Shown: one piece after another, positions 62,606-64,000 of the stretch | Numbering within the stretch: the stretch's first letter is position 1 | How the letters are laid out: each line of letters opens with the position of its first letter | NCBI RefSeq assembly: GCF_003020585.1 | Contig: NZ_PXUE01000002.1 | Coordinates: 744,001 to 808,000 of the forward strand | Reading direction: 5' to 3' | Origin: Chryseobacterium aurantiacum | GTDB lineage: Bacteria > Bacteroidota > Bacteroidia > Flavobacteriales > Weeksellaceae | Length of the DNA: 64,000 bases | Made by a program: the position numbers and the translations under genes | The notes under the pieces: model-generated | Seen by the model: the letters and a program-made list of their open reading frames with translations, nothing else | What the model was told of the DNA's origin: nothing | Databases searched by the model: none

Positions 62606-62636
62606 TTTGAAAATCAGATTCTTCTTTTTATATTTG
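62606..62636 (+). promoter_or_regulatory. Complete Bacteroidota promoter for the fluoride exporter gene
   Basis: TTTG (62606-62609, in a T-run), a 19-base spacer and TATATTTG (62629-62636) fit the -33/-7 consensus. The expected start of transcription is just before the riboswitch at 62646. Confidence 0.75.
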
Positions 62637-62645
62637 CATTATCAA

Positions 62646-62698
62646 AAGGAAATGGTGTTCTTCCTTACCCAACCGCTTTATAAAAGCTGATGACGCCT
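62646..62698 (+). promoter_or_regulatory. Fluoride riboswitch (crcB RNA motif)
   Basis: All core parts of the crcB motif are visible: P1 stem AAGGAA (62646-62651) with TTCCTT (62661-62666) enclosing ATGGTGTTC; the conserved AACCGC; the second stem GCTTT (62675-62679... in 62675-62687) with AAAGC; the invariant GCTGATGACGCCT; and the pseudoknot GGTGT (62654-62658) with ACGCC (62693-62697), with one G-U pair. The following gene is a CLC-type channel, the classic target. Fluoride would stabilise the pseudoknot and turn the gene on. Confidence 0.95.
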
Positions 62699-62730
62699 GA
62701 TTAATAGATTATTAACAATAACTAATCAGG
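62696..62730 (+). promoter_or_regulatory. Alternative stem overlapping the fluoride pseudoknot and the start region
   Basis: CCTGATTA (62696-62703) pairs perfectly with TAATCAGG (62723-62730). The left arm reuses the last two C of the pseudoknot strand, and the right arm holds the only AGG upstream of the ATG at 62737. No T-tract follows, so it fits translation control better than termination. Confidence 0.7.
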
Positions 62731-62736
62731 ATTATT

Positions 62737-64000
62737 ATGTCAAAACATCAGTGGACTCTTCGTAAAAAAGTAATTTTTCATATTCATTTTTTTTTCAGAA
62801 AATTTCCGGCACTACCCTATATTTTAAAATGGCTGTTTATCAGTAGTATTATCGGCATATTGGTGGGGACAGCCTCTGCAGGCTTTTTACAATCATTGGA
62901 ATGGGCTACCAATTTCCGGGAAAATCATTTATGGTTAATTGCATTACTTCCTGTTGCTGGCTTTCTGATTGGACTTTTATATTATTACTTTGGAAAAGAT
63001 GTTGAGGCAGGAAATAATTTACTGATTGACAATATTCACGATCCGAAAGAAATTATTCCCTTCAAAATGGCTCCTTTTGTTTATCTGGGAACTATTGCTA
63101 CACATCTTTTTGGAGGTTCTGCAGGACGTGAAGGAACTGCTCTTCAGATGGCTGGTGCTATTGCAGACCAGCTTACTAAGCCTTTCAAGCTTGATAAAAG
63201 TGAGAGAAAAATAGTAATTATCTCCGCAATTGCTGCCGGATTCGGATCTATTTTTGGAACCCCTCTGGCAGGAGCTGTTTTCGGACTTGAGGTTTTCCTT
63301 ATTGGAAGAATACGTTACACTGCCCTATTTCCCGCTTTTGCATCGGCTATATTAGCAGATTACGCCACTAATCTATGGAATGTAAAACATACGCATTATC
63401 ATATTGACATTATTCCAAAACTAGAGTTTTTACCAATCCTGTACAGTATTTTAGCAGGTATTGCTTTTGGAATCTGTGCCGCTGCATTCAGTAGAATCAT
63501 TCATTGGGCTGGTTCTCTTTTCAAATCAAAAATTAAATATCCGCCTTTTCGTCCGGTAATTGGAGGAACTATCGTTGCTTTGGCGGTTTTGGCAATGGGT
63601 ACAACCCGTTATATTGGATTGGGAGTTCCCGTCATCGTAGAATCCTTTGAAAAGCAGCTTCCATTATATGATTTTGCCTTGAAAATGATTTTTACTATCG
63701 TTACACTTTCCGCAGGATTTAAAGGAGGTGAAGTCACTCCTTTGTTCTTTATAGGAGCAACCCTTGGGAGTGCATTATCTCTGTTTATCCCTTTGCCATT
63801 TGGTTTACTGGCCGGAATGGGCTTTGTGGCTGTATTTGCAGGGGCAACAAATACTCCGTTGGCATGTATGCTGATGGGAATTGAATTATTTGGAGCAGAA
63901 TGTGGTCCTTATATCGCCATTGCGTGCGTTGTTTCCTACCTTCTATCGGGACACAACAGTATTTACACCAAGCAGAAAATTGGAGTTGCCAAAAACCGAA
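62737..64000 (+). CDS. CLC family fluoride channel/antiporter (CLC-F type), cut by the right edge
   Basis: An inner-membrane CLC-fold protein, 421 codons visible, that probably expels fluoride. It has the CLC-F signature GREGT (SAGREGTALQMAGAIADQL) where chloride CLCs have GREGP, keeping the gating Glu, plus GFGSIFGTPLAGAVFGLEV, SAGFKGGEVTPLFFIGATLGS and FAGATNTPLACMLMGIELFG. About ten helices are seen. The fluoride riboswitch directly in its leader supports fluoride as the ion instead of chloride. ATG 62737 is chosen because it follows the riboswitch and gives the normal short N-terminus. The end of the gene is outside the window. Confidence 0.93.
   Translation, partial: MSKHQWTLRKKVIFHIHFFFRKFPALPYILKWLFISSIIGILVGTASAGFLQSLEWATNFRENHLWLIALLPVAGFLIGLLYYYFGKDVEAGNNLLIDNIHDPKEIIPFKMAPFVYLGTIATHLFGGSAGREGTALQMAGAIADQLTKPFKLDKSERKIVIISAIAAGFGSIFGTPLAGAVFGLEVFLIGRIRYTALFPAFASAILADYATNLWNVKHTHYHIDIIPKLEFLPILYSILAGIAFGICAAAFSRIIHWAGSLFKSKIKYPPFRPVIGGTIVALAVLAMGTTRYIGLGVPVIVESFEKQLPLYDFALKMIFTIVTLSAGFKGGEVTPLFFIGATLGSALSLFIPLPFGLLAGMGFVAVFAGATNTPLACMLMGIELFGAECGPYIAIACVVSYLLSGHNSIYTKQKIGVAKNR

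Follow-up and report, generated by a model that had tools for sequence, protein, structure and literature searches.

The fluoride riboswitch found in the window (the whole stretch of Chryseobacterium DNA that was analysed, 64,000 nucleotides in length) probably controls its CLC-F gene as a fluoride-ON translational switch, which works by strand competition and keeps an AGG near the start codon as the partner of the aptamer's CCU, not as a Shine-Dalgarno (SD) site. We hold this reading with good confidence. In the proposed mechanism, transcription would begin just 5' of the aptamer. When fluoride is scarce the pseudoknot of the aptamer would fail, and the 3' strand of the aptamer, CCUGAUUA, would pair with UAAUCAGG directly 5' of the AUG, shutting the initiation region. 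Mg2+-fluoride would let the pseudoknot take C62696 and C62697 together with the bases before them; the hairpin would lose its outer G-C pairs, its AU-rich remainder would open, and the CLC-F exporter would be translated. The two folds are expected to exclude each other, and Rho-dependent termination or decay may come in as a secondary effect.

The aptamer, its promoter and the CLC-F gene

The aptamer occupies 62639-62706 of the forward strand, which also carries the promoter, the stem and the gene described below. The Rfam model RF01734 (crcB) matches it over its full length (1-64) with 53.2 bits, against a gathering threshold of 34 (E 6e-12), and this is the sole Rfam match at the gathering threshold within the 64-kb window. 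By this match the element is a fluoride riboswitch of class RF01734, and it is expected to bind fluoride. Helix P1 (62646-62651 with 62661-62666) appears in the free and the constrained fold, and P2 (62675-62679 with 62683-62687) in the constrained fold. The pseudoknot between loop and tail (62654-62659 with 62692-62697) was read by eye, with six pairs, two of them G-U; the covariance model gives pseudoknots no score. One fluoride riboswitch was found in the window's own genome (4.6 Mb, 15 contigs). Within the genus, 126 of 148 sampled genomes contain one, while the frequency is 42 of 148 in a family sample, 31 of 296 in an order sample and 55 of 395 in a phylum sample; these samples overlap, and the wider ones contain genus members.

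Upstream of the aptamer stand a -33 element, TTTG (62606-62609), and, after a 19-nt spacer, a -7 box TATATTTG of the form TAnnTTTG (62629-62636), both read from the sequence and fitting the Bacteroidota-type -33/-7 promoter consensus. The -7 box is widely kept: among 129 unique genus upstream regions, 113 match it perfectly at the best of 14 offsets, vs 15 of 2000 random stretches taken from the loci at the best of 12. The -33 TTTG is kept less well, with only 19 perfect matches in the 129. An earlier sequence-only reading of this DNA had described a crcB core behind a full -33/-7 promoter and had named a covariance search as its check; the strong match and the promoter both bear it out.

The gene directly 3' of the aptamer links the riboswitch to fluoride resistance. 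Its ATG lies at 62737, after an expression platform of 30 nt, and its reading frame (62737-64000) continues beyond the window end; extended, as had been proposed, it is complete in L243 and encodes 435 amino acids with a PF00654 domain (E 9.8e-75). The protein scores 219 bits to the solved CLC-F structure 6d0j vs 54.6 bits to ClcA of E. coli. Five CLC matches, the CLC-F included, and no CrcB match were found in the own genome. Of the four other CLCs (L241, L242, L244, L245), the two compared with solved structures show the opposite preference, L241 (ClcA 110 bits, CLC-F 47) and L244 (ClcA 78 bits, CLC-F 44). An alignment of 14 riboswitch-linked CLCs shows no variation in the filter residues GNN (G92 N93 N94), GREGT (G130-T134) and GEVTP (G331-P335); L062, which stands outside this alignment, reads GREGS. 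In a published filter table the same three motifs occupy the F- rows of P. syringae, Pirellula and Ralstonia (PMC5100911). On these scores against solved structures and these filter residues the gene is classed as CLC-F type, in agreement with the earlier assignment from GREGT, and fluoride/proton exchange is predicted. Among the 80 named CLC-F matches listed, Chryseobacterium accounts for 17, including the best 12, with 78-92% identity.

The alternative stem in the window and in the genus

Over 8 bp the strand CCTGATTA (62696-62703) is fully complementary to TAATCAGG (62723-62730), exactly as the sequence-only reading had it. The 5' arm opens with C62696 and C62697, which at the same time end the pseudoknot strand 62692-62697; this is the two-base overlap on which that reading based its proposed competition. 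The intervening loop (62704-62722) is predicted, from the fold and from the alignment, to contain a further apical stem. The 3' arm ends with an AGG (62728-62730), 6 nt 5' of the ATG, and is followed by the spacer ATTATT and the start codon (62731-62739), with A at -3 and -6, Kozak-like as in Bacteroidota starts. It had been claimed that the stem covers the only AGG before the start; this holds for the neighbourhood of the start, but a second AGG lies in P1 (62647-62649).

In the predicted OFF fold the six outer pairs have probabilities of 0.98-1.0 and the inner two 0.68 and 0.50, while the AUG is paired only about half the time. The minimum-energy hairpin (62690-62739) extends into the loop and reaches -8.2 kcal/mol (z -3.05, equalled by 2 of 200 shuffles). 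The stem score of the window leader is matched in 57 of 3000 dinucleotide shuffles, which is only modestly above chance; the stem is convincing because it is kept across the genus, not from one sequence. The sequence 3' of the stem, ATTATTATG, is without a U-run, and the stem ends 6 nt from the AUG. Since the stem shares two C's with the pseudoknot and is not followed by a U-run, fluoride-ON control of translation is the best reading.

The ON state was approached by a crude fold, in which 62690-62698 were barred from pairing and the pseudoknot itself was absent. Pairing of the AGG drops to 0.34-0.70 in this fold, while the spacer and AUG are paired at 0.57-0.92, above the 0.03-0.79 of the OFF fold, so folding alone predicts no freer start. 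The aptamer, the CLC-F gene, the conserved stem and the missing U-run support the earlier prediction in so far as it implies fluoride-ON control of translation, while the opening of the start region with fluoride finds no support in this fold. The minimum-energy fold also hinted at a longer pairing, in which UGAUGA of the aptamer would take in the AUG and the UUAUUA of the spacer. This extension was rejected on a test in which 60 real upstream hexamers of the genome were put into each of 40 of the 74 unique leaders whose spacer is 6 nt long; the spacer was paired at 0.318 vs 0.325 in controls, and the AUG at 0.517 vs 0.490. Complementary runs were longer (mean 5.1 vs 3.3), which is not counted as support because it is confounded by common descent.

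Across the genus, 138 of 139 leaders, these being all matches above the Rfam cutoff, keep an anchored stem of 6 bp or more. Nine duplicate loci (L097, L106, L116, L149, L157, L166, L174, L184, L193) and two loci below the cutoff (L068, L069) were left out of the counts within and outside the genus. The lone exception, L191, is without the AGG, and no CLC gene follows it. In the 138 leaders the AGG precedes the next ATG by 6 nt in 115 cases, by 5 in 15, by 7 in 7 and by 3 in 1, and an A stands at -3 in 94%, vs 53% of 260 genes of the genome. When the register was set from the AUG only, in 135 leaders (66 unique), 84.6% of cells pair vs 11.9-50.3% at 12 other shifts. No compensatory change was seen at the outer stem pairs within the family (0 of 7 pairs), so the conservation of these pairs could reflect the sequence itself. 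Because such covariation is absent within the family, support is taken from conservation together with changes between families. A covariation table that had been built on a required 6-bp stem is circular for the first six pairs, and was discarded as a test.

Among 67 loci outside the genus, which are not independent because some are near relatives, 37 have a stem that is reached by at most 2% of 300 shuffles, and 30 fall short; the level is reached by 21 of the 35 loci with a CLC gene and by 10 of the 21 with CrcB. The arms change together between families. L093 has CCUACAAAU/AUUUGUAGG (CCTACAAAT/ATTTGTAGG; shuffle fraction 0.000 of 300), L204 has CCUGCAAA/UUUGCAGG (CCTGCAAA/TTTGCAGG; 0.007) and L203 has CCUACGAAUUAU/AUAAUUUGUAGG (CCTACGAATTAT/ATAATTTGTAGG; 0.000), each with one arm directly at the AUG. 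These three belong to eight CLC-F leaders of other families in which no more than 0-2 nt separate the AGG from the first in-frame AUG, the others being L073 (shuffle fraction 0.063), L074 (0.010), L077 (0.063), L079 (0.050) and L202 (0.023). Before two CrcB genes the AGG forms codon 3: in L071 the start codon lies inside the stem (0.017), and in L207, from another class of the phylum, the stem holds the AUG minus its first base (0.010). A stem with a T-rich tail precedes the CrcB genes of L091, L206 and L211, where the stems are likely terminators. Candidates with the AUG in the stem at L053, L072 and L075 were rejected on shuffle fractions of 0.14, 0.45 and 0.25, as was the Dysgonomonas leader L277, with AAGG one base 5' of the AUG, on 0.137.

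A further view comes from the named CLC-F loci. A riboswitch lies at most 600 nt upstream in 53 of the 80 listed (20, 13, 10 and 10 per batch). Removal of 16 Chryseobacterium loci, with the Chryseobacterium record L266 kept in, leaves 37 named leaders, 31 of them Bacteroidota by title and 6 Proteobacteria or cyanobacteria. The 2% level is reached by 15 of the 37 (11 of the 31 Bacteroidota), mostly with an arm of the CCTGATTA type; in one, Galbibacter L288, the distance to the AUG is 20 nt, and the start of Leadbetterella L270 was misassigned. In 12 of the 37, all Bacteroidota, no stem between the aptamer 3' strand and the start region was found (fraction above 0.5). These are four Pedobacter (L287, L290, L304, L319), two Telluribacter, Echinicola, Cecembia, Mongoliibacter, Lunatibacter, Neptunitalea and Sinomicrobium, and in each a fluoride aptamer stands before a CLC-F gene. 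Two leaders in genomes G599 and G649 (L215, L216) combine a fluoride riboswitch with an 11-bp OFF stem, with 0 of 300 shuffles as good, and the ORF downstream is by motif neither CLC nor CrcB.

The AGG as a probable switch strand and the rival readings

The sequence-only reading had given the stem its importance by letting it hide the AGG as an SD site, in a phylum that seldom uses such sites. In the window by itself the AGGA, 6 nt from the ATG, has good SD geometry and fits by sequence both that view and the role of a switch strand. The wider comparison does not sustain the SD framing. In the own genome 18 of 260 genes (6.9%) have an AGG no more than 8 nt before the start, vs 54 of 1300 shuffled upstream regions (4.2%), and 1 of 260 has it exactly 6 nt away; these starts come from 464 kb (the window and 20 stretches of one contig) and were predicted as the first ATG of each ORF of 200 aa or more, so that some are wrong. 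The AGG is found in 138 of 138 genus leaders, a set that excludes L191 by construction. Because the aptamer fixes the CCU, any pairing arm must contain AGG (or GGG). An AGG that lies 0-2 nt from the AUG, or that forms codon 3, could hardly serve as an SD site, and the shifted positions in other families fit a complement of the CCU better. We infer that in the window, too, pairing with the conserved CCU of the aptamer accounts for the AGG better than an SD role does. The own assembly gave no SSU rRNA match, so there was no 16S anti-SD to compare; the draft assembly is probably incomplete.

The rival that keeps closest to the earlier claim is that the stem hides a true SD site, the gene being one of an SD-led minority in a mostly SD-less phylum. 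The placing of the window AGGA would suit this, as would the AGGA of 112 of the 138 genus leaders, but the longer AGGAG appears in only 2 of them, AGG near starts is close to background, in other families it moves against the AUG or into the frame, and the CCU demands it by itself. PMC6847099 also reports Bacteroidetes as being without SD sequences, and describes for Flavobacterium johnsoniae Kozak-like start features and an initiation tuned by local structure. We consider a hidden SD site unlikely. The switch could also act on transcription, with the hairpin as an intrinsic terminator or as a cause of Rho-dependent termination. Blocked translation can reportedly trigger Rho, a point ascribed to Bastet in 2017. 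Stems with a T-rich tail do occur in some phylum members, and the well-studied fluoride riboswitches of B. cereus and T. petrophila are transcriptional (PMC11077080). The window stem, however, ends 6 nt from the AUG and is followed by a sequence free of any U-run, and the tails of the genus are similar among the leaders listed, which leaves a transcriptional switch quite improbable. That the stem is incidental, and that the aptamer alone, folded near the AUG, controls translation, would be in line with the 12 stemless leaders among the 37, four of them from Pedobacter, and with the 57 of 3000 shuffles that reach the window score. We find this very hard to reconcile with a stem kept in 138 of 139 genus leaders and with arms that change together in some other families.

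A translational fluoride-ON switch whose AGG is the partner of the CCU may extend beyond the genus. We lean slightly towards the view that many Bacteroidota use translational fluoride switches without SD sites, in which the CCU picks an AGG wherever the start region allows and occlusion of the AUG region suffices. The AGG would then be placed 5-7 nt before the AUG, 0-2 nt before it or across it, and if this is true, the apparent SD site is a switch strand. For fluoride biology the case is ordinary. Its value would lie in a natural test of translational riboswitches where ribosomes are thought to ignore SD sites, with more than 100 orthologous leaders that share one conserved switch strand, and relatives in which this strand is shifted against the AUG, as test material. 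It also advises caution, since to annotate an AGG in a leader of this kind as a ribosome-binding site would first require a test.

Known systems and other fluoride loci

Translational fluoride riboswitches, CLC-F proteins, the aptamer class and the overlap principle are already known. Pseudomonas syringae and Burkholderia pseudomallei belong to a phylum that uses SD sites. PMC13273304 describes their fluoride riboswitches as translational, with 0% fluoride-dependent antitermination; the switch proposed here would be translational as well, but what it hides does not have to be an SD site. With the RF01734 riboswitches in general the window shares the complete aptamer and a pseudoknot strand held in common with the expression platform. 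PMC11077080 reports such an overlap in fluoride riboswitches that act on transcription; in B. cereus and T. petrophila the platform is a terminator, whereas here it is a hairpin at the start codon. Among CLC-F antiporters (6d0j; P. syringae eriC-F), 6d0j is the best solved relative of the window protein. By alignment it is itself of the GMNL/GREGV subtype, whereas the window protein, with GNNLL, GREGT and GEVTP, matches the F- rows of Pirellula and Ralstonia in PMC5100911.

Repression at start regions is also familiar within the phylum. A preprint on TPP riboswitches is said to describe it at SD-less start regions in Bacteroides. The Bacteroides sRNA GibS represses an SD-less mRNA by pairing at the start region (PMC7366714). 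The proposed fluoride switch is likewise one of start-region repression, but in cis, fluoride-sensing and of a different RNA class. Among the titles listed in a search of the open literature, with most subscription journals outside its coverage, none dealt with the platform of fluoride riboswitches in Chryseobacterium or Bacteroidota, and in the part of PMC12121620 that was checked for fluoride in Bacteroidota the word 'fluoride' is absent.

Several other fluoride loci came to light. In a genome of the same genus (G145, C1:4828000-4852500, L238 and L239) three fluoride riboswitches lie within 17 kb. Their neighbours include, by Pfam, an inorganic pyrophosphatase, an enolase, three universal stress proteins and a P-type ATPase, and a relaxase and a MobC-like gene adjoin. 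Two of its leaders (L002, L190) keep the OFF stem without a CLC gene downstream; the third is L191, with its AGG lost. The region has the look of a fluoride-resistance island that sits on a mobilisable element, and resembles the fluoride operon of six genes in Enterobacter cloacae FRM (PMC5533749). Identical leaders precede CLC-F genes in G076 (twice), G123 and G214 (L178, L179, L180, L194); since G214 belongs to another genus of the family, this suggests a recent horizontal transfer. Enolase is an enzyme inhibited by fluoride. In genome G736 (L201) a fluoride riboswitch lies 156 nt 5' of an ORF that is enolase-like by eye. Finally, in Chryseobacterium sp. SSA4.19 a Flavo-1 RNA (RF01705; L260:1930-1997) lies just 3' of the CLC-F gene.
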